A model generated the notes under the pieces. It did no database searches. It saw nothing but the letters and a program-made list of their open reading frames with translations, and had not been told where the DNA came from. From Corallococcus sp. EGB (lineage in GTDB: Bacteria; Myxococcota; Myxococcia; Myxococcales; Myxococcaceae): DNA of 64,000 nucleotides. The position numbers and the translations under genes are program-made. Below are positions 27,843-48,715 of this stretch, piece after piece; position 1 is the stretch's first letter; each line of letters opens with the position of its first letter. The DNA lies in assembly GCF_019968905.1 (NCBI RefSeq), contig NZ_CP079946.1:2852001-2916000 (forward strand), in the 5' to 3' direction.

Positions 27843-28503
27843 GCGGCCCATCCTCTACAGCCAGCCGATGGTCCGGGCACGGCTCGCTGACCGGAAGACG
27901 GTCACGCGGCGGCTGGTGAAGTCTCTCGGTCCGGACACCGTCTACGGACGTAAGCCCGACTGGGTCGGTGTCCCTGAGTCGGCGCGTCGTCGCGGTGGGT
28001 GGCTGCTCCCCGACATCGGCCCGCAGTTTGTCTGTCCCTTCGGCCAGCCCGGGGACCGGCTCTGGGTGCGGGAGACGTGGGCGCTGGAGGACCTGGAGGG
28101 CGACGGCCAGCGCGTTGTGTGGATGGCCGACCGTGCCGCCGCGTGGCGCACGAACCTCGCCGAGCGCTTCTACTTGGCGTCGGACTACGAGCCGCGGCGC
28201 TGGACGCCCTCCATCCACATGCCGCGCTGGGCGAGCCGGTTGACGGACGAGGTGGTGTCCGTGCGTGTCGAGCGCCTACACGACATCACCGAGGCGGACG
28301 CGCGGGCGGAGGGGATGCAGCGCTACCACGGCCCGTTGAGGTGGGGGCGGTGGCTGGACGTCCTCACCGGGGAGCCCATCCACAACAGCGCGCGGGACGC
28401 CTTCGCCACCTACTTCGTGACGCTGCCCGGCGGGACGGATGCGTGGGAGTGCAACGACTGGGTGTGGCGCGTGGAGACGCGGCGGGTGGAGGGCGCGCGA
28501 TGA
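27835..28503 (+). CDS. Phage ASCH-fold-like protein (ERPILYS type)
   Basis: 222 residues from a GTG at 27835 overlapping the gene before by 8 bases. Hallmarks: RPILYSQPMVRARLADRKTV, CPFGQPGDRLWVRETW, PSIHMPRWASRLT and VERLHDITEADARAEG, a pattern widespread in prophages of many hosts. The core resembles the ASCH/PUA-like RNA-binding fold, but no biochemical role is established. It sits between DUF5131 and DUF1643 genes. Confidence 0.75.
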   Translation: MVERPILYSQPMVRARLADRKTVTRRLVKSLGPDTVYGRKPDWVGVPESARRRGGWLLPDIGPQFVCPFGQPGDRLWVRETWALEDLEGDGQRVVWMADRAAAWRTNLAERFYLASDYEPRRWTPSIHMPRWASRLTDEVVSVRVERLHDITEADARAEGMQRYHGPLRWGRWLDVLTGEPIHNSARDAFATYFVTLPGGTDAWECNDWVWRVETRRVEGAR

Positions 28504-29006
28504 CGCCCCGCTACCTGGATGCCGGCGCTGAGCTGAGCGAGTGCGGCCTGTACCGGTACCGCCTCTGGCGCCGCTGGTCCGCGCAGGAGGGCGCGCCGCG
28601 CGTCCTCTTAGTGATGCTGAACCCCTCCGTCGCCGATGGGCAGCAGGACGATCCGACGCTGCGCCGCTGCGTGGCCTTCGCGCAGTCGTGGGGCTACGGC
28701 GCGCTCACGCTTTGCAACCTCTTCGCCCTGCGGGCCACCGACCCGGCGGACCTGATGCCGGCGAAGGACGCGGTGGGCCCGCTCAACGATGCGGCCCTCG
28801 AAGCCGCTGCGCGTGATGCCACCCTCGTCGTCGGGGCGTGGGGCGCCCACCGCATGGTGCCCCAGCGTGCGCCCGCGGTGCTGGCGCTGCTGCTCCGGTA
28901 CCACTCGGTGCACGCGCTCGCGCTCACAGGCGCTGGCGAGCCGCGGCATCCGCTGTACCTGGCCGGCCACCTGCGGCCGCAGATCTACCGGGAGGCGCTG
29001 TCGTGA
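28500..29006 (+). CDS. DUF1643 family protein
   Basis: 168 residues. RYRLWRRWS, LLVMLNPSVADGQQDDPTLRR, LCNLFALRATDP and VVGAWGAH are the DUF1643 signature. Members are frequent in phages and plasmids; function is unknown, although the fold may bind nucleotides. Start ATG overlaps the preceding stop by 4 bases. Confidence 0.85.
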   Translation: MTPRYLDAGAELSECGLYRYRLWRRWSAQEGAPRVLLVMLNPSVADGQQDDPTLRRCVAFAQSWGYGALTLCNLFALRATDPADLMPAKDAVGPLNDAALEAAARDATLVVGAWGAHRMVPQRAPAVLALLLRYHSVHALALTGAGEPRHPLYLAGHLRPQIYREALS

Positions 29007-30525: not shown

Positions 30526-30909
30526 ATGAGCACGCCCACGCCCGCCATGACGGCGCTGGAGCAGGTTCGCGCCCTTGTCACCCGCCACCGCTTCCGCTGC
30601 GCCGGGGAGGCCCTCCTGCAGGAGGCGCTCGCCCAGGTGCTGACGGAGGCGGGCATTGCCTTCCAGCGTGAAGTGCGGCTGGGGGAGGCGGGCCGCATCG
30701 ACTTCCTGCTGACGGAGGCCCACGTCGGCCTCGAAGTGAAGGTGGACGGGGGCCTGTCCGAGGTCACCCGCCAGCTTCTGCGCTACGCGGAGCGGGAGGA
30801 CGTTCACGCCCTCCTGCTCGTCACCACCCGCAGTCGCCACGACAGCTTGCCGGCCCTCATGCAGGGCAAGCCCGTGCGCGTCGCCGTGTTGAAGGGAGGC
30901 CTGCTGTGA
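30526..30909 (+). CDS. PD-(D/E)XK nuclease-like phage protein
   Basis: 127 residues. EALLQEALAQVLTEAGIAFQ, GRIDFLLTEAHVGLEVKVDG and VTRQLLRYAE show the nuclease-fold order helix, ID, ExK, helix (Asp in RIDFL, Glu-Val-Lys in LEVKVD). The fold is also used by VRR-Nuc and restriction-like enzymes. GTG overlap (GTGA) with the helicase gene suggests the two act together in replication or recombination. ATG 30526 is the best start, and the region 30419-30525 between it and the inverted gene is the divergent promoter space. Confidence 0.7.
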   Translation: MSTPTPAMTALEQVRALVTRHRFRCAGEALLQEALAQVLTEAGIAFQREVRLGEAGRIDFLLTEAHVGLEVKVDGGLSEVTRQLLRYAEREDVHALLLVTTRSRHDSLPALMQGKPVRVAVLKGGLL

Positions 30910-32630
30910 AGACGTTCGGGACGGTGCGCCTGGAGGCGCGGAAGCTGGGCAGCCGCGGCGGTGCGCGGCCTGCGTGGGTGGTGCAGGCGGAGCCCCATGT
31001 GGCGCTGCGCCTGAAGCGCGTCTTCGACCGCATCAACAAGGGGGACGTCGGAGAAGTCCTCCTGGCGGCCACTGCGGAGACGGCGCGCGAGCTGGAGTGG
31101 TTCCTCGAGCGCTACCCCATGGAGGTGGTGGGGAAGGAGGCGAAGGACTTCCTCCGGCACGGCGCGCGCGAGCACGCACGGCGCGAGGCGCAGGTGGCGG
31201 AGCTGCTGGCGGCCGAGTACCAGGCGCCCGACTTCGCGATGAATGTCCCGCCCCGGGAGTACCAGCGGAAGGCAGCGGACATGTGGCTGCGACTGCAGCG
31301 GCTGTTGCTCGCGGACGACGTCGGCCTGGGGAAGACGGCCTCCGCGCTGACGGGCTTCACGGACGCGCGCACGCTGCCGGCCGTGGTGGTGACGCTGACG
31401 CACCTGCCCCGGCAGTGGCAGCGCGAGCTGGCGCGCTTCCTGCCGCGCCTGCGCGTGCACGTGGCGAAGCGCGCGACGCCGGAGGACGTCACCCGGGGGC
31501 GCGGCGGGAGGAAGCTGCCGTGGCCGGACGTCCTCGTCCTCAACTACCATAAGCTGTCCGGCTGGGCGGACACGCTGGCCAACGCGGGCGTGCGCTCCAT
31601 CGTCTTCGACGAGTGCCAGGAGCTGCGGCGCGGGCCGGAGTCGGACAAGTACCGGGCCGCCCACTACCTGGCGGAGCGCACGCCCTTCGTCATCGGCCTG
31701 TCCGCCACCCCCATCTACAACTACGGCGGGGAGATGTTTCACGTCCTCGACGCCATCAAGCCCGGCGTCCTGGGCACGCGTGAGGAGTTCAGCCGGGAGT
31801 GGTGCACCGGCGTGGACGACAAGCTCAACTTCAAGGACCCGCGCGCCTTCGGCACGTACCTGCGCGACGCGGGACTCATGCTGCGCCGCACACGGCAGGA
31901 CGTCGGGCGGGAGCTGCCGTCCCTCGCGCGCGACGTGCATACCGTCGAGTCGGACACGCGGGTGCTCGACGAGGTGCAGGACAAGGCCGCGGAGCTTGCC
32001 CGCATCATCCTCGCCCAGGGTGGGGTGAAGCCGGAGGAGCGACTCCACGCGTCCGGGGAGCTGTCCTGGCGGCTACGGCAGGCCACCGGCATCGCGAAGG
32101 CGCCCTTCGTCGCGGAGTTCGTCCGCATGCTGGTGGAGAACGGCGAGCGCGTGCTGCTCTACGGCTGGCACCACGAGGTGTACAGCATCTGGCGGGAGCG
32201 GCTCGCGGAGTACTCCCCGGCCATCTTCACCGGCCAGGAGAGCCCCGCGCAGAAGGAGGAGCAGGCGAAGCGCTTCAAGGACGGGCAGACGCCCATCCTC
32301 ATCATGTCGCTGCGCGCGGGCGCGGGACTCGACGGCCTCCAGCACTGCTGCCGCACGGTGGTGTTCGGCGAACTGGACTGGAGCCCCGGCGTGCACGAGC
32401 AGGCGTGCGGCCGCGTCCACCGCGACGGCCAGACGGACCCCGTCATGGCCTACTTCCTGGTGTCCGACTCCGGCTCGGACCCGGTGGTGGCGGACGTCCT
32501 CGGCATCAAGCGCAACCAGATGGAGGGCATTCGCGATCCGCAGGCCAGCCTCATGGAGCGGCTGGAGACGGACGAGGGCCGCGTCCGGAAGCTGGCCGAG
32601 GCCTTCCTGAAGAACCGGAGGGCGGCATGA
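30906..32630 (+). CDS. SNF2-type DNA helicase/translocase
   Basis: 574 residues from a GTG. N-terminal 110 residues are specific; then REYQRKAADMWL (Q-like motif), Walker A DDVGLGKTASAL (GKT at 142-144), VFDECQEL (motif II, DECQ), GLSATPIYN (motif III), and in the second lobe LLYGWHHEV, MSLRAGAGLDGLQ (V) and QACGRVHRDGQTDPV (VI). All helicase motifs are present. Superfamily 2 SNF2 proteins in phages work in replication, recombination or in remodelling of DNA-bound proteins. Coupled by 4-base overlaps to the nuclease and the PAPS reductase-like genes. Confidence 0.92.
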   Translation: MKTFGTVRLEARKLGSRGGARPAWVVQAEPHVALRLKRVFDRINKGDVGEVLLAATAETARELEWFLERYPMEVVGKEAKDFLRHGAREHARREAQVAELLAAEYQAPDFAMNVPPREYQRKAADMWLRLQRLLLADDVGLGKTASALTGFTDARTLPAVVVTLTHLPRQWQRELARFLPRLRVHVAKRATPEDVTRGRGGRKLPWPDVLVLNYHKLSGWADTLANAGVRSIVFDECQELRRGPESDKYRAAHYLAERTPFVIGLSATPIYNYGGEMFHVLDAIKPGVLGTREEFSREWCTGVDDKLNFKDPRAFGTYLRDAGLMLRRTRQDVGRELPSLARDVHTVESDTRVLDEVQDKAAELARIILAQGGVKPEERLHASGELSWRLRQATGIAKAPFVAEFVRMLVENGERVLLYGWHHEVYSIWRERLAEYSPAIFTGQESPAQKEEQAKRFKDGQTPILIMSLRAGAGLDGLQHCCRTVVFGELDWSPGVHEQACGRVHRDGQTDPVMAYFLVSDSGSDPVVADVLGIKRNQMEGIRDPQASLMERLETDEGRVRKLAEAFLKNRRAA

Positions 32631-33472
32631 CGTCCGCGAGTCCCTTTCGCATCGAAGGCCCTGCCGTCATCAGCTTCAGCGGTGGGCGGACGAGCGCGTA
32701 CATGCTCCGGCGGATCCTCGACGAGGGGCTCCAGCCGGATGTGCACGTCCTCTTCGCCAACACGGGGAAGGAGCGGCCGGAGACCCTGGATTTCGTCCAC
32801 GAGTGCCAGACGCGCTGGGGTGTACCAGTGCGCTGGCTGGAGCGGCACCATGGACAGGGCGACGTGCCGTCGTTCACCGAGGTGACGTACGCCACGGCCT
32901 CGCGTCAGGGTGAGCCCTTCGCTGCACTTCTCCGGGAACGGGGCTTCCCTCCGAACCCCATCATGCGGTTCTGCACCACAGAGCTGAAGGTGCGGGTGAT
33001 GAAGACGTTCATGCTGGCCCAGGGCTACGAGCACTGGACCAACGTGGTGGGCCTCCGTGCGGACGAGCCCGGGCGCGTCGCGAACGGTCGCGCGACGGAG
33101 GGGAAGGAGCGCTGGGACCTCGCCTATCCGCTTTTCGATGCCGGCATCCGCAAGGACGACGTCATCCTTTGGTGGAAGAAGCAGCCCCACGATCTCCAGC
33201 TCCGGTCCTGGGAGGGCAACTGCGACCTGTGCTTCCTCAAGGGGCAGTCTAAGCGGCTCCGCATCATGGAGGACCGCCCCGACCTTGCGGAGTGGTGGAT
33301 TGCCCGAGAGCGGGACCTGGGCGCCAGCTTCCGTGTGGACACGCCTACCTATGCAGCGTTGCTGCACCAAGCCCAATACCAGGGACGCTTCTTCAGTAAC
33401 GACCTCTTCAACGAGCAGCTCCCTGACGACCCCACGGACCTCGGCGACTGCGTGTGCCTGGAGGCGGCATGA
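32627..33472 (+). CDS. Phosphoadenosine phosphosulfate reductase-like protein (PP-loop ATPase family)
   Basis: 281 residues. AVISFSGGRTSAYML is a PP-loop (SGGxTS), followed by VLFANTGKERPETLDFV and the Cys motifs MRFCTTELKVR and GNCDLCFLKG (two Cys in CDLC). This pattern is common in phage PAPS-reductase-like proteins and in the DndC/IscS-linked DNA sulfur enzymes. It probably adenylates or thiolates a substrate; real sulfate assimilation in a phage is unlikely. No dndB, dndD or dndE homologue is visible nearby, so DNA phosphorothioation cannot be claimed. Confidence 0.85.
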   Translation: MTSASPFRIEGPAVISFSGGRTSAYMLRRILDEGLQPDVHVLFANTGKERPETLDFVHECQTRWGVPVRWLERHHGQGDVPSFTEVTYATASRQGEPFAALLRERGFPPNPIMRFCTTELKVRVMKTFMLAQGYEHWTNVVGLRADEPGRVANGRATEGKERWDLAYPLFDAGIRKDDVILWWKKQPHDLQLRSWEGNCDLCFLKGQSKRLRIMEDRPDLAEWWIARERDLGASFRVDTPTYAALLHQAQYQGRFFSNDLFNEQLPDDPTDLGDCVCLEAA

Positions 33473-43097: not shown

Positions 43098-43667
43098 GTG
43101 GGAAGCACGCCCCCTCGCAAGCCCAGCACGCGCCGCAGCCGGAAGGCCCCGGCGGATGAGTCGCGCGCGCAGGCGCTGACGGCGAAGCAGGAGCGCTTCG
43201 TCCAGGAGTACCTCCTCGACCTCAACGCCACCCGGGCCGCTCGGGCCGCCGGCTACTCGGAGCGCACCGCCGAGTCGCAGGGCAGCCGGATGTTGAGGAA
43301 TGTCAAGGTGTTGGAAGCCGTGGCCGCGGCCCAGAAGGCTCGTGCTGATCGCGTCGAGGTGAAGGCGGACGACGTCCTGCGCGAGCTGCTCCTCATCGCC
43401 CGGACGGACATCGGCGACGCCTTCAGCGAGACGGGCGCCCTGCTGCCGCTGAAGGAGATGCCGGCCCACCTGCGTCGGGCCATCTCCTCCATCGAGGTGG
43501 AGCAGCTCACCGTGGACGGCGAGGCCATCGGCACCGTGGCCAAGGTGAAGCTCTGGGACAAGCCGAAGTCGCTGGAACTGCTGGGCAAGCACCTGCGCCT
43601 CTTCGTCGACAAGGTGGAGACCACCGTCCAGTTCAGCCACGAGGACGCGCTGGGGGAGCTGGAATGA
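43098..43667 (+). CDS. terS: Terminase small subunit
   Basis: 189 residues from a GTG with GGAG 10 bases upstream. LTAKQERFVQEYLLDLNATR, AARAAGYSERTAESQGSRML and LRELLLIARTDIGDAF match Terminase_2 small subunits: a DNA-binding HTH followed by an oligomerisation region. It recognises the packaging site and delivers DNA to the large subunit, whose ATG overlaps its stop by 4 bases. Confidence 0.92.
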   Translation: MGSTPPRKPSTRRSRKAPADESRAQALTAKQERFVQEYLLDLNATRAARAAGYSERTAESQGSRMLRNVKVLEAVAAAQKARADRVEVKADDVLRELLLIARTDIGDAFSETGALLPLKEMPAHLRRAISSIEVEQLTVDGEAIGTVAKVKLWDKPKSLELLGKHLRLFVDKVETTVQFSHEDALGELE

Positions 43668-45223
43668 GCGCCCGTGCCCGCCGCCACGCGGCCGAGCCGT
43701 CCCACCAGGGCGCGGCCCCGGCGCCCCTCTCCGCCCGAGAGAAGGCCATTCGCCAGCGGCTGAAGGACGACTTCCCGCACTACGCCTCGCGGTGCTTGCG
43801 CATCCGCCCGAAGGAGGTGACGGGCGGCGAGCTGCCGTCGCTGAAGCTGAACCGCGCGCAGCTGTACATCCACGAGCGTCTGGAGGCGCAGCTGAAGCGC
43901 CGGGGCTACGTGCGCGCCATCGTCCTGAAGGGGCGGCAGCAGGGGTGCAGTACGTACGTGGAGGCCCGCTTCTACTGGAAGGTGAGCCACCTGAAGGGCG
44001 TGCGCGCCTACATCCTCACGCACGAGGACGCGGCGACGGTGAATCTCTTCGACATGGCGAAGCGGTACCACGACCACGTTCCGACCCTGGTGAAGCCCTC
44101 GACGAGCGCCTCCAACGCGAAGGAGCTCCTCTTCGACAAGCTGTCCTCCGGCTACAAGGTGGGCACCGCGGGCGCGAAGGGGACGGGCCGCTCCTCCACC
44201 ATCCAGTACTTCCACGGCAGCGAGGTGGCCTTCTGGCCGAACGCCGCAACGCATATGCGCGGCGTCATGGAGGGCGTGCCGACGGCGCCAGGCACCGAAG
44301 TCATCCTGGAAAGCACCAGCGACGGGCCCCAGGGCCTCTTCCACCACCTGTGCATGGCAGCGCAGAAGGGGGAGAACGACTTCGAGCTCATCTTCGTGCC
44401 GTGGTTCTGGCAGGAGGAGTACCGGCGCGAGGTGCCGCCGGGCTTCGAGCGCACCAGCGAAGAGGAGCGGTATGCCGCCCTCTGCCGCGAGGCGCACGGC
44501 TTCGAGCTGGACGACGCGCAGCTCGCCTGGCGCCGGGCGAAGATTTCCGTCTACGAGAAGGGCATCCACGACTTCCGCCGCGAGTACCCGGCGACGGTGG
44601 AGGAGGCCTTCAAGGCCGCTGCGCTGGGCGCGCTGTGGACTCAGGAGACGCTGGAGCGCGCCCATGTCCCGGAGAAGCCGAAGGACGCCGAGGGCAACCC
44701 GCTGCCCATGGTGCGCGTGGTGGTGGCGGTCGACCCTGCCGGCGGCGACGGACCCGCCAACGACGAGGTGGGCATCGTCTGCGCGGGCAAGGCCAGCAAC
44801 GGCCACGCCTACGTCTGGCTGGACGCCAGCGGGAAGTACTCCGCCGAGGCCTGGGCGGCGAAGGCGTTGGCCGTCTACGAGAAGGAGAGCGCGGACGCCA
44901 TCGTCGGCGAGAAGAACTTCGGCGGCGACATGGTGGAGACGAACCTCCGCGCGAAGGCCCGCGAGACGAAGAAGCACGTCGCCGTGAAGGTGGTGACGGC
45001 CTCGCGCGGCAAGGCGAAGCGCGCGGAGCCGGTGGCGGCCCTCTATGAGCGCGGGATGGTGCACCACGTGGGGCGCCTCGCTGCCTTGGAGGACGAGCAG
45101 ATGACGTGGGTGCCCGGGGAGTCGAAGTGGAGCCCCAACCGCATGGACGCGGCGGTGTGGGCCCTCACGGAGCTGATGCTCGGCGAGGGCACGGCCACTT
45201 TCCAGGTGAGGAGCTACCGGTGA
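43664..45223 (+). CDS. terL: Terminase large subunit
   Basis: 519 residues. The packaging ATPase and nuclease: Walker A at 90-97 (GRQQGCST, an adenine-type variant), GTEVILESTSDG carrying the Walker B acidic residue, then RNase H-like nuclease residues in VVVAVDPAGGDG, IVGEKNFGGDM and SPNRMDAAVWAL. All catalytic parts are intact. Its stop overlaps the next ATG (ATGA type). Confidence 0.95.
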   Translation: MSARARRHAAEPSHQGAAPAPLSAREKAIRQRLKDDFPHYASRCLRIRPKEVTGGELPSLKLNRAQLYIHERLEAQLKRRGYVRAIVLKGRQQGCSTYVEARFYWKVSHLKGVRAYILTHEDAATVNLFDMAKRYHDHVPTLVKPSTSASNAKELLFDKLSSGYKVGTAGAKGTGRSSTIQYFHGSEVAFWPNAATHMRGVMEGVPTAPGTEVILESTSDGPQGLFHHLCMAAQKGENDFELIFVPWFWQEEYRREVPPGFERTSEEERYAALCREAHGFELDDAQLAWRRAKISVYEKGIHDFRREYPATVEEAFKAAALGALWTQETLERAHVPEKPKDAEGNPLPMVRVVVAVDPAGGDGPANDEVGIVCAGKASNGHAYVWLDASGKYSAEAWAAKALAVYEKESADAIVGEKNFGGDMVETNLRAKARETKKHVAVKVVTASRGKAKRAEPVAALYERGMVHHVGRLAALEDEQMTWVPGESKWSPNRMDAAVWALTELMLGEGTATFQVRSYR

Positions 45224-46788
45224 TGGCCTGCCGCCCGCCCGCTGAAGAACCCGTTGAATGCCGCGCTGGTGCGCGGATGGAGCCGCACGTGACTACGAAA
45301 TGTGCAGAGTACGTCTCGGCCCCGGCGCAGTCGGGGCACGACGCGCTGGTGGAGAGCGTCGTGCGGGCTGTGGACGCCGCACTGACGGGGCACCCCGCGG
45401 GGACGCGCCACCAGGCGCTGGGCGTCATCCGCCGATTCTGCTCGACCGCCACGGAACCGTTGTGGCCGGACGCCATTCAGGCCCGCAAGAGCGAGGAGCG
45501 GGTCCAGAGCATCAAGGATGCGCTAGCCGAGGGCTTTGCCCAGCAGAAGAAGGGCCCGCCCGTCTCGAGCGCGGAGGAACGCCGAGTGCACGCGGCCGTT
45601 GCCGCCCGCTTCGAGGCCATTCTCTTTCCGGGGAGGAGCCCCTGGCACTCAACGCCGGATGGCCTCATTGGCGAGGTGGCGACACGCGTGGCCGATGCCA
45701 GGAAGCTGAGGGCCGAAGTCGGCGCCCTGGCCCAGCAGCTGACGGACATCCTCTACCCCGGATCATCCAAGCCGGACCTGAGTCTCCAGGAGTTGATGGC
45801 CGAGGTGGCGCGCCTTCGCGAGAACGCAGGACGCTACGTGTTGAGCGAGGACCGTGATGCTGTTGAGCAGCAGGTCCGCGACAGCACTCGTGCCGAAGTC
45901 GCTGGACACCTGTCGTCTGTCCTCTACCCGGGAGATGCCGCCAACCCTGGCGCGGAGCGGGAGACCCGGCCCCTGGCGCTGGAGGCGGTGCTGGCCGAGG
46001 TGGAGCGCCGGCTGCGCAACTCCCCGGGCAGCACCGCCGACGAGTGGGAGGCCGCGTACCGCTACCTGGGCGAGATGGGCGTGCCCTCGACGGATGCCAA
46101 CGGCGCGGACGTGCCGCTCGTCGAGCGCGTGCGGCAGTTGCTTGCGCGTGAGCGCGACGCAGCGCTGGAGGAGGCGGCGCTTGCGGCGCTGTGCGGAATC
46201 CACGGCACCACAGACCCGGAGCGCCACAAGGCCGCACGAGACATCCGCGCCCTGAAGTCACAGTCGGCACTGGAGGGCGCGGCCGTGAAGAGCGTCCACC
46301 AGCGCCTCCGCTCCGTGTCCGAGCAGGGCGTGCCCTCCCGGACCAGCGACGACACGGCCGACGTGCCGCTCGTGGAGCGCATCCGGCAGCTCCTGGTGCG
46401 CGAGCGTGACGCCGTGCTGGAGGAAGTGGCGGTGGAGACTGAGCAGCACGCAGCCACCCAGGATTGGTGTTCGAAGACGACGGGCTTCGAGGAGAACCGC
46501 GCGAAGTACACGGCCCGGGGCGAGGCCCTCAAGGACTGGGCCCGGGATGTCCGGGCGATGAAGTCGAAGCCCGCGTCCGAGACGCCCACCGAGCCCATCC
46601 ACAACTTCGGGTGGGCGTTGGCGCAGATGCGCGCGGGGAAGAAGGTGCGGAAGCCGTCCATGATTCTCCCGCGCTTCATCTACCTCGACACCAGCGACGG
46701 GGAGCAGATCCTCATGGCGGGTGGTGCCACTCTTGGCATGGTGACTCAGGACTACCTCCTCGCCACCGACTGGGAGGTGGTCGAGTGA
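45223..46788 (+). CDS. Large helical phage protein with C-terminal Tad2-like (DUF2829) domain
   Basis: 521 residues. Residues 1-450 are helical and repetitive; two copies of a unit (GVPSTDANGADVPLVERVRQ with LLARERDAALEE, and GVPSRTSDDTADVPLVERIR with LLVRERDAVLEE) show an internal duplication. Residues 460-521 (HNFGWALAQMRAGKKVRKPS, then PRFIYLDTS, ILMAGGATL and DYLLATDWEVVE) match DUF2829, the family of the anti-Thoeris protein Tad2, which traps cyclic ADP-ribose-type signals. The usual small-protein form is about 65-90 residues; here it is a C-terminal module. Binding residues cannot be verified from sequence alone. Position between terminase and JAMM genes is unusual for an anti-defence gene. 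Confidence 0.65.
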   Translation: MACRPPAEEPVECRAGARMEPHVTTKCAEYVSAPAQSGHDALVESVVRAVDAALTGHPAGTRHQALGVIRRFCSTATEPLWPDAIQARKSEERVQSIKDALAEGFAQQKKGPPVSSAEERRVHAAVAARFEAILFPGRSPWHSTPDGLIGEVATRVADARKLRAEVGALAQQLTDILYPGSSKPDLSLQELMAEVARLRENAGRYVLSEDRDAVEQQVRDSTRAEVAGHLSSVLYPGDAANPGAERETRPLALEAVLAEVERRLRNSPGSTADEWEAAYRYLGEMGVPSTDANGADVPLVERVRQLLARERDAALEEAALAALCGIHGTTDPERHKAARDIRALKSQSALEGAAVKSVHQRLRSVSEQGVPSRTSDDTADVPLVERIRQLLVRERDAVLEEVAVETEQHAATQDWCSKTTGFEENRAKYTARGEALKDWARDVRAMKSKPASETPTEPIHNFGWALAQMRAGKKVRKPSMILPRFIYLDTSDGEQILMAGGATLGMVTQDYLLATDWEVVE

Positions 46789-47252
46789 GCACGGCGTACG
46801 TCTCCGACGGCTACCGCGTGCGCCTGGCGCCCGGCGTCCTGGCCAAGGCCCTGCGCCTGGCGCGGGTGCGCGCCCCGCTGGAGACAGGCGGCCTGCTACT
46901 GGGCGCCGTAGTGGACGGCGAAGCCTGCGTGCTCGCCGTCACCGGACCCGGGCGGAAGGCCGTGCGCAACCGCTTCGGCTTCGAGGCGGACCGGGGCCGG
47001 GACAATCGCCTCCTGGCCCGGGTGCGTCCGCGCCTGCACTGGATCGGCGACTGGCACACCCATCCTGGAGGGAGTCCGATTCTCTCCGGCACGGACGAGG
47101 AGGCCGCGCGGTCCGCGCTGAGCGACAAGCGCGGCTGGGTGTTGGAGATGGTGGTGGCCGGCAATCCCAGCATGCGTGAGCGCCTGCAGGTAGGGCTCTT
47201 CACCGCAGTGCGCGGCGAGGCGGCCATCCGCCGCATGGAGCCCGCCGAATGA
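46785..47252 (+). CDS. JAMM/MPN metalloprotease
   Basis: 155 residues, GTG start overlapping the preceding stop. The full JAMM zinc site is present: Glu33 in LETGGLLLG, His91 and His93 in DWHTHPGG, Ser101 and Asp104 in ILSGTD. The family cleaves isopeptide or peptide bonds next to small folded modifiers such as ubiquitin-like proteins; in phages JAB domains also occur in tail assembly proteins (lambda K). Location between terminase and portal is not the tail position, so another role, such as capsid processing or counter-defence, is open. Confidence 0.85.
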   Translation: MSTAYVSDGYRVRLAPGVLAKALRLARVRAPLETGGLLLGAVVDGEACVLAVTGPGRKAVRNRFGFEADRGRDNRLLARVRPRLHWIGDWHTHPGGSPILSGTDEEAARSALSDKRGWVLEMVVAGNPSMRERLQVGLFTAVRGEAAIRRMEPAE

Positions 47253-48715
47253 GCGCCGCCGACGTCAGCACCCCCAGCAGTGCCTACCGGGCCATGCAGC
47301 CCGCGTGGGCACTCGTCCTGGCCCTCCTGGGCGGCACCAGCACCATGCGCGCCGCCGGGCGCACGTACCTGCCGCAGTACCACGCGGAGGAGGACGCGGC
47401 GTACAAGGAGCGCCTCCAGCGCGCCGTCCTCCTCAACGTCTTCGGCAAGACGGTGCGCAACCTGGCCGCGAAGCCCTTCTCGAAGCCCGTGCGCCTGGGC
47501 GAGGCCGCCCCGGAGCCGCTGCGCGTCCTGGTGGATGACGTGGACAGGCAGGGGAGCGACATCACCGCCTGGGCCCGCGGCGTCTTCCGGGACGGCCTCG
47601 GCAAGGGACTCGCCCACATCCTCGTGGACTTCCCGGCGGTGGACCCGGAGACGGTGAAGACGCTGGAAGACGAGCAGCGCGCCGGCCTCCGCCCGTACTT
47701 CGTCCACGTCTCCGCCGAGTCCCTCATCGCCGCATACGCCGAGACGGTGAATGGGGTGGAGGTACTCACCCACGTGCGCATCCGCGAGAGTGAGACGCGC
47801 CGGGACGGCTTCGAAGAGGTGCAGGTGGAGCGGGTGCGCGTCCTCGAGCGCGACAACTGGGCCATCTACGAGCGCAGTGGCACCAGCGAGTGGGAGGTGG
47901 CGGCAAGCGGCCCCAACACGCTGGGCTTCGTGCCCCTCGTTACTTGGTACGCCGGGGAGCGCACCGCGCTGTGTGCCGCGAAGCCGCCTCTCATGGACCT
48001 GGCGGACAAGAACGTGGAGCACTGGCAGTCCGCGAGCGATCAGCGGAACGTCCTCACCGTGGCGCGCTTCCCCATGCTGGCGGCCTCGGGGCTGGAGCCG
48101 GACGGGGGCGGGGAGGGCGGCAAGGGCGCGGGGAAGGTGCCAGTGGGGCCGCATGCGCTCCTCACCACCAGCAGCCCGCAGGGGAAGTTCTATTACGTGG
48201 AGCACACCGGCGCGGCCATCGCTGCCGGGCGGCAGGACCTGGAGGACTTGAAGGACGAGATGGCCATGTTGGGCGTGGAGCTCCTCGTCCGGAAGTCGGG
48301 CTCCACCACGGCCACTGAGAAGTCCATCAACACCGCCCAGGCCCACTCCGAGCTGCAGGCCATGGCGGAGTCCTTCGGGGACGCGCTGGAGTTGGCCTTC
48401 TACTTCGCGGCCCGGTGGTTGGCCTTGGAGGTGGACGACGCGAGCCTGAAGGTGGAGGTGAACACCGACTTCGGTATCTCCGAGGGTGACGCCCAGGGAC
48501 TGGACGTCCTCTTCAAGGCGCGCGCTGCCCGGGAGATTTCCCGCGAGGCCTTCCTGTCGGAGCTGAAGCGCCGCGGTGTCCTCATGGCCGACTTCAACGT
48601 GGAGACGGACGGGGAGCGCCTGGCGAGCGAGGGCCCCGCGCTTAGCAGCCTCCGCACGGCGCCGGCGGCCGGTGCCCAGGCGCCGCCGGGGCAGGGCGCC
48701 GGAGGTGAGCGGTGA
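47249..48715 (+). CDS. Portal protein (DUF4055 family)
   Basis: 488 residues. It forms the dodecameric DNA channel at one capsid vertex. VFGKTVRNLAAKPFSKPVRL, ARGVFRDGLGKGLAHILVDF and NVEHWQSASDQRNVLTVARFP match DUF4055 portals; the C-terminal helix region ends Ala/Pro/Gly-rich. Position after terminase and before the head morphogenesis gene is canonical. ATG overlaps upstream stop by 4 bases. Confidence 0.85.
   Translation: MSAADVSTPSSAYRAMQPAWALVLALLGGTSTMRAAGRTYLPQYHAEEDAAYKERLQRAVLLNVFGKTVRNLAAKPFSKPVRLGEAAPEPLRVLVDDVDRQGSDITAWARGVFRDGLGKGLAHILVDFPAVDPETVKTLEDEQRAGLRPYFVHVSAESLIAAYAETVNGVEVLTHVRIRESETRRDGFEEVQVERVRVLERDNWAIYERSGTSEWEVAASGPNTLGFVPLVTWYAGERTALCAAKPPLMDLADKNVEHWQSASDQRNVLTVARFPMLAASGLEPDGGGEGGKGAGKVPVGPHALLTTSSPQGKFYYVEHTGAAIAAGRQDLEDLKDEMAMLGVELLVRKSGSTTATEKSINTAQAHSELQAMAESFGDALELAFYFAARWLALEVDDASLKVEVNTDFGISEGDAQGLDVLFKARAAREISREAFLSELKRRGVLMADFNVETDGERLASEGPALSSLRTAPAAGAQAPPGQGAGGER

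Follow-up and report, generated by a model that had tools for sequence, protein, structure and literature searches.

A divergent Tad2-like domain at the end of an accessory gene in the late operon of a Corallococcus prophage

A typical anti-Thoeris sponge of the Tad2 kind is a stand-alone protein of about 90 amino acids that, as a homotetramer, sequesters gcADPR or His-ADPR. The Tad2-like family (PF11195, formerly DUF2829) includes several proteins described as sponges for immune signals (review PMC12043709). In a prophage of Corallococcus sp. EGB, a domain of this family forms the C-terminal end of an open reading frame (ORF) of 521 amino acids, which raises the question of how such a gene came to lie among the packaging and head genes and what its product might do there. 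A preliminary description had proposed a structural protein of the late region with an anti-Thoeris tail and had called the pairing with a protease gene unusual. We followed up this proposal in the window, i.e., the complete stretch of 64,000 nucleotides that was analyzed and to which all coordinates refer.

Insertion of an accessory gene into the 5' end of the JAMM gene

The ORF (45223-46788, plus strand) is tightly packed between its neighbours on the same strand, overlapping the gene of the terminase large subunit (terL, 43664-45223, matches to PF17289 and to PHROG terminase families) by one base and the gene of a JAMM/Prok-JAB protein (46785-47252, PF14464, E 4.2e-11) by four bases. The JAMM gene is followed by a portal gene of the DUF4055 type (47249-48715, plus strand, PHROG 145 with E 4.5e-133 and PF13264 with E 1.7e-40) and a head-morphogenesis gene, and since genes for scaffold, major head protein, head-tail adaptor and tape measure are found further downstream, the gene content identifies the region as the late operon of a tailed prophage. 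The overlapping coordinates thereby bear out the position between terminase and JAMM gene in the late operon that had been described before. The nearest named relatives of the terminase are found in Corallococcus carmarthensis (94% identity) and Corallococcus sp. AS-1-6 (92%).

A comparison with related prophages revealed how the ORF is placed. We collected 17 loci with a terminase of 73-94% identity and matching neighbours and merged copies with at least 99.5% identity over 1500 bases, which left 12 distinct loci. The ORF is absent from all 12, and among all loci compared it is matched only by those of its own genome. In 11 of the 12 (L008-L012, L014-L016, L090, L092, L093) the JAMM gene directly follows terL, and in the remaining one (L013, L186; Pyxidicoccus) the portal gene does so, with neither a JAMM gene nor any accessory gene in between. 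In half of the distinct loci (L008-L012 and L090) the JAMM gene opens at ATGGCCTGCC, the A of which is the last base of the terL stop codon, and reads MACPLP...(A/D)LYVSDGYRV in frame. The window contains ATGGCCTGCC at the same position, but here it opens the accessory ORF; TACGTCTCCGACGGCTACCGC, which encodes YVSDGYR, appears only after the stop codon of this ORF, and the JAMM gene now opens at an overlapping GTG. The ORF thus lies inside the first approximately 13 codons of the former JAMM gene. This location marks it, on comparative sequence grounds, as an accessory (moron-type) insertion and not as a conserved structural gene. The opposite scenario, in which an ancestral ORF was lost in all 12 relatives and the start of the JAMM gene was exactly repaired, is less simple than insertion. 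As the JAMM gene stands without the ORF in 11 of the 12 loci, the proposed pairing with a protease gene is not upheld, and the association looks incidental.

Some further observations concern the neighbourhood of the ORF. The JAMM protein retains the full HTH-x7-S-x2-D motif and shows a weak match to CBASS Cap3 (30.5 bits compared to a cut-off of 200); matches to other JAB models are also weak. Nine of the 12 distinct loci (L009:8048-8584, L015:8057-8593 and seven more; not L010, L011 or L013, nor the window) encode, after the JAMM gene and ahead of the portal gene, a protein of about 178 residues that begins with VTCIAGVV...GGDSAG. This start resembles that of Ntn-hydrolase (proteasome-like) proteins; for the two members that were scanned no Pfam match was found. 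A possible proteasome-like protein would thereby stand beside the JAMM protein. On the early side of the prophage we observed genes for a DUF1643 protein (28500-29006) and an SNF2-type helicase (30906-32630), and a PAPS-reductase-like moron gene (32627-33472).

The reading frame itself is supported by codon usage. With a checked codon reference the frame of the accessory ORF scores +82, compared to -101 to -516 in the remaining five, and the G+C content at third codon positions is 85.8%. Codon usage is coding-like in both parts of the gene (72.5 for the N-terminal part and 22.3 for the Tad2-like end). The first 18 codons score -10.2, which is unlike coding sequence, and therefore the ATG at 45277 (503 amino acids) seems to be the likelier start. 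The Tad2-like end (46597-46788) has a G+C content of 63.0% in comparison to 70.4% in the remainder of the ORF, with a third-position value of still 89%; this lower G+C content could point to different origins of the Tad2-like end and the remainder.

A repetitive N-terminal part and no accepted relative of the fusion

The long region in front of the Tad2-like domain is composed to a large extent of two types of repeats. The A-type repeat (...ILYPG...LMAEVA...) occurs at residues 115-158, 163-205 and 210-270 (45565-46032, plus strand). A comparison of the second and third copy yielded a score of 53 and of the first and second a score of 39, neither of which was reached in 1000 shuffles, and the score of 35 between the first and third copy was reached in nine of 1000. 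The B-type repeat (VPLVER-RQLL-RERDA-LEE...ARD-RA-KS) is present in two copies at residues 268-352 and 353-455 (46024-46587, plus strand) with a score of 142, compared to 49 for the best of 1000 shuffles. An AlphaFold model of the full ORF, calculated without an alignment, consists mostly of helices, with a low confidence (pLDDT 45.6). The N-terminal part is thus repetitive and probably helical, and the earlier statement that the Tad2-fold domain ends a long helical protein holds, with the helical character as a probable one.

Searches with this part gave no indication of a phage structural family. It has no PHROG or Pfam match below E 0.25, and nothing better than E 0.049 was obtained from Pfam, PHROGs, NCBIfam and PADLOC together; weak rows that we did not use were Pfam DUF5398 (E 0.27) and three NCBIfam models (E 0.05-0.19). 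The repeat piece had no match in the phage collection up to E 10, and tblastn of the ORF against the remainder of the window returned nothing below E 1.0. A repeat profile searched in 96 genomes of the family matched the ORF itself twice and 19 places outside it (E 0.002-0.09), which were presumed to be chance matches.

The whole ORF likewise had no relatives in IMG/VR and was not matched by the phage collection at E values up to 1, and in 59 genomes rows were obtained only in its own genome and in two others (E 5e-4 and 9e-4). Two candidate relatives were rejected: L003 contains an internal stop, has plausible genes on the opposite strand and was not reproduced by tblastn, and L004 is another frame of a larger gene that, named by eye, looks like a housekeeping gene. 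The domain alone retrieved nothing from IMG/VR and three rows from the phage collection at E 7-9; L123 and L124 are family-like by motif, and a row in phage Hali was discarded as it lies on the strand opposite to the annotated genes. When PDB sequences were searched for the domain, designed armadillo repeats appeared in eight rows (E 1e-4 to 0.08), each put together from numerous tiny matches none of which passed on its own, and a terminator protein in another (E 1.2); all were judged as chance. There is accordingly no accepted relative of the fusion, and therefore no conservation backs a function. Titles and abstract openings of the open-licence papers that were listed in our searches do not describe such a fusion either.

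Fusions of the Tad2-like domain to other modules were found elsewhere. Family members were present at 39 IMG/VR loci (14 and 25, including several duplicates), of which at least seven carry the domain fused to something else: read by eye, it lies behind a Y(I/V)GTK...SWSP module in L147, L148, L153, L154 and L157, before a similar stretch in L150 and behind about 60 residues in L138. Pfam confirmed the domain in all five of these that were scanned (L147, L148, L150, L157 and L138, 48-91 bits). These proteins resemble the accessory ORF in that the domain is fused and, except in L150, C-terminal, but they comprise 130-180 amino acids without a long repeat region, so that the ORF described here is far longer than the other fused forms met.

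A short Tad2-like domain with changed residues

The assignment of the C-terminal end to DUF2829, proposed before for residues 460-521 (46600-46788, plus strand), was confirmed by profile search. PF11195 matches residues 461-520 of the whole protein with 20.3 bits (E 8.2e-4) and residues 455-521 alone with 26.4 bits (E 1e-5) at a gathering cut-off of 25 bits; membership therefore has to be regarded as marginal, because the whole protein stays under the cut-off that the isolated domain passes. A profile of 30 other family members, built without the window sequence, yielded 34.6 bits with the domain and 27.2 with the complete ORF, while the best of 500 shuffled domain copies reached 12.0 bits; this result is supporting and not fully independent, since the members were gathered partly with the window sequence in the query. 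In a six-frame search of the host genome (a single contig of 9.43 Mb, E up to 1) the accessory ORF is the only PF11195 match, and among 195 Myxococcota genomes (E up to 0.01) the family was detected only in the window's own. Other family rows for the domain were weak (PHROG 1048, unknown function, E 0.0021; PHROG 872, E 0.083; two PADLOC rows, E 0.013 and 0.038).

The predicted structure points in the same direction. An AlphaFold model of the domain, built with a 31-row alignment that contained PF11195 members, has a pLDDT of 77.6 and a pTM of 0.56. The first seven Foldseek rows are all Tad2 chains (probability 0.95-1.00, E 0.03-0.26, TM-score by query length 0.53-0.55), in agreement with the Tad2 fold claimed earlier; no row had an E value below 0.001, and among the best 50 of 142 rows those after the seventh have a probability of at most 0.12. 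The ten matches given by VIA-align belong without exception to Tad2 or AcrIIA7, with Z 3.1-5.0, which is middling by the tool's own note; the best five superimpose with an rmsd of 2.7-3.5 over 48-53 residues, and two lower rows fit loosely (rmsd 5.7 and 7.8).

In comparison to the characterized Tad2 proteins (SPO1 gp34.65, ModTad2, HgmTad2 and SptTad2, all PF11195) the domain shares the fold, the F-x2-AL-x5-GKKV-like start, the LLA-DWE end (LLATDWE in the window) and the origin from a phage or prophage. It differs in length, as it has 62 residues and is thus at least 26 residues shorter than the solved chains (88-104 residues), in its position behind about 455 residues, and in the absence of both GWNG and the longer middle region. 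A rhizobiophage Tad2-like protein is reported with 97 amino acids (PMC13299392).

The core fold and the end of the domain are therefore preserved, but three positions of the 67-residue stretch that are almost invariant in the 31-row alignment are replaced. At position 23 the window has Lys where 30 of 31 members have Arg (R23K), and at position 26, the Trp of the GWNG motif of SPO1 Tad2 and ModTad2, it has Met instead of the Trp of 29 members or the Phe of one (W26M). Position 57 in front of LLA-DW is Tyr in the window and Asp in 29 of 31 members, with Glu in one (D57Y), a conservation that is partly built in, because the scan pattern demanded Asp or Tyr there. The Trp at position 26 is not universal in the family, since the gut-phage member L123, which lies outside the alignment, has Cys. 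We take the residues of the GWNG loop and the Asp before LLA-DW to line the ligand pocket, partly on the basis of the loops described in the literature. The gcADPR pockets are described as being formed by the loop β1-β2, the loop β3-β4, strand β4, the loop β4-α3 and helix α3 of different protomers, and cyclic dinucleotides as being bound via an insertion between β2 and β5 (PMC12043709). Structures with ligands are available for SPO1 Tad2 (8smf, and 8smg with gcADPR), ModTad2 (9eib, with hisADPR) and HgmTad2 (8kbj, with cADPR). In the alignment the middle region is missing from the window domain, and with it the long insertion between strands 2 and 5 that is linked to cyclic-dinucleotide binding. 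A loss of pocket residues, which the preliminary description itself had held to speak against its proposal if complete, is thus, as far as sequence can show, found in part: the residues at positions 23, 26 and 57 are replaced, and the pocket may have been lost.

Possible roles of the accessory gene

We propose that the late operon of a tailed prophage acquired a moron-type gene within the beginning of its JAMM gene and that this new gene would probably be read together with the packaging and head genes. The product would be modular, with repeats and probably helices in its N-terminal part and a short, divergent Tad2-fold domain at its C-terminus; the domain would bind an immune signal of the host or a different ligand, be it a small molecule or a protein, and the repeats would multimerise or place it. 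Counter-defence is the role that we tentatively favour for such a late-placed accessory gene. Sponge activity of the divergent domain is possible and an anti-defence action plausible rather than proven, because residues typical of the Tad2 family are changed. Of the anti-Thoeris function that had been claimed, the Tad2 fold and the PF11195 match stand, while the three replacements and the shortened domain speak against it. Close behind ranks the serious possibility that the Tad2 fold has been reused for binding or oligomerisation and does not act as a sponge, the accessory gene having another role. This would be in line with the replaced near-invariant residues, the short domain, a host without ThsB_TIR or TIR_2 and the Tad2-like domains that adjoin unrelated modules in other phages, but the core fold and the LLATDWE end have been kept, and those members met that have a described function are anti-defence proteins. 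The distribution of Thoeris neither supports nor excludes a counter-defence role: ThsB_TIR (PF08937, E up to 1e-5) was found in 13 of 96 Myxococcaceae genomes, including three of 16 of the same genus, to which the host itself was counted, and the lack of a match to ThsB_TIR (PF08937) or TIR_2 in the host's own genome is indecisive, because the prophage may meet Thoeris in other hosts.

Other explanations appear much less probable. A decaying or non-functional cargo, i.e., an acquired frame without a present role, would explain a singleton without detected relatives and with changed conserved residues, but the coding-like codon usage of both parts and the clean start and stop overlaps make it unlikely. 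The structural protein originally envisaged, delivered with the particle and carrying an anti-Thoeris tail, would fit a gene between terminase and portal that overlaps its neighbours; we consider it very unlikely, as the ORF is missing from all 12 loci in which terL, the portal and in 11 cases the JAMM gene are kept, and as the N-terminal part lacks the phage and family matches mentioned above. Least probable of all seems a protein-targeting inhibitor akin to what the label AcrIIA7 implies. PDB entries of the same fold and family carry this anti-CRISPR name as well as Tad2 (8kbi, 8kbk and 9kzr, the latter with a chain of 158 residues), but no specific similarity to AcrIIA7 was seen. A more far-reaching form of sponge can be imagined, in which a late-expressed, re-shaped Tad2 domain with a new pocket, tied to the repeat scaffold, would either capture some immune signal that is not gcADPR or act at assembling heads when Thoeris-like systems begin sensing late phage proteins; this seems rather improbable to us.

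For this group of phages the results indicate that the interval between terL and the portal gene is a site where accessory genes come and go. For the family, a domain with such changed loops is informative in either case. Should it be unable to bind an immune signal, a PF11195 match alone would be insufficient to name an anti-Thoeris function; should it still bind one, the ligand range of the Tad2-like family would widen.
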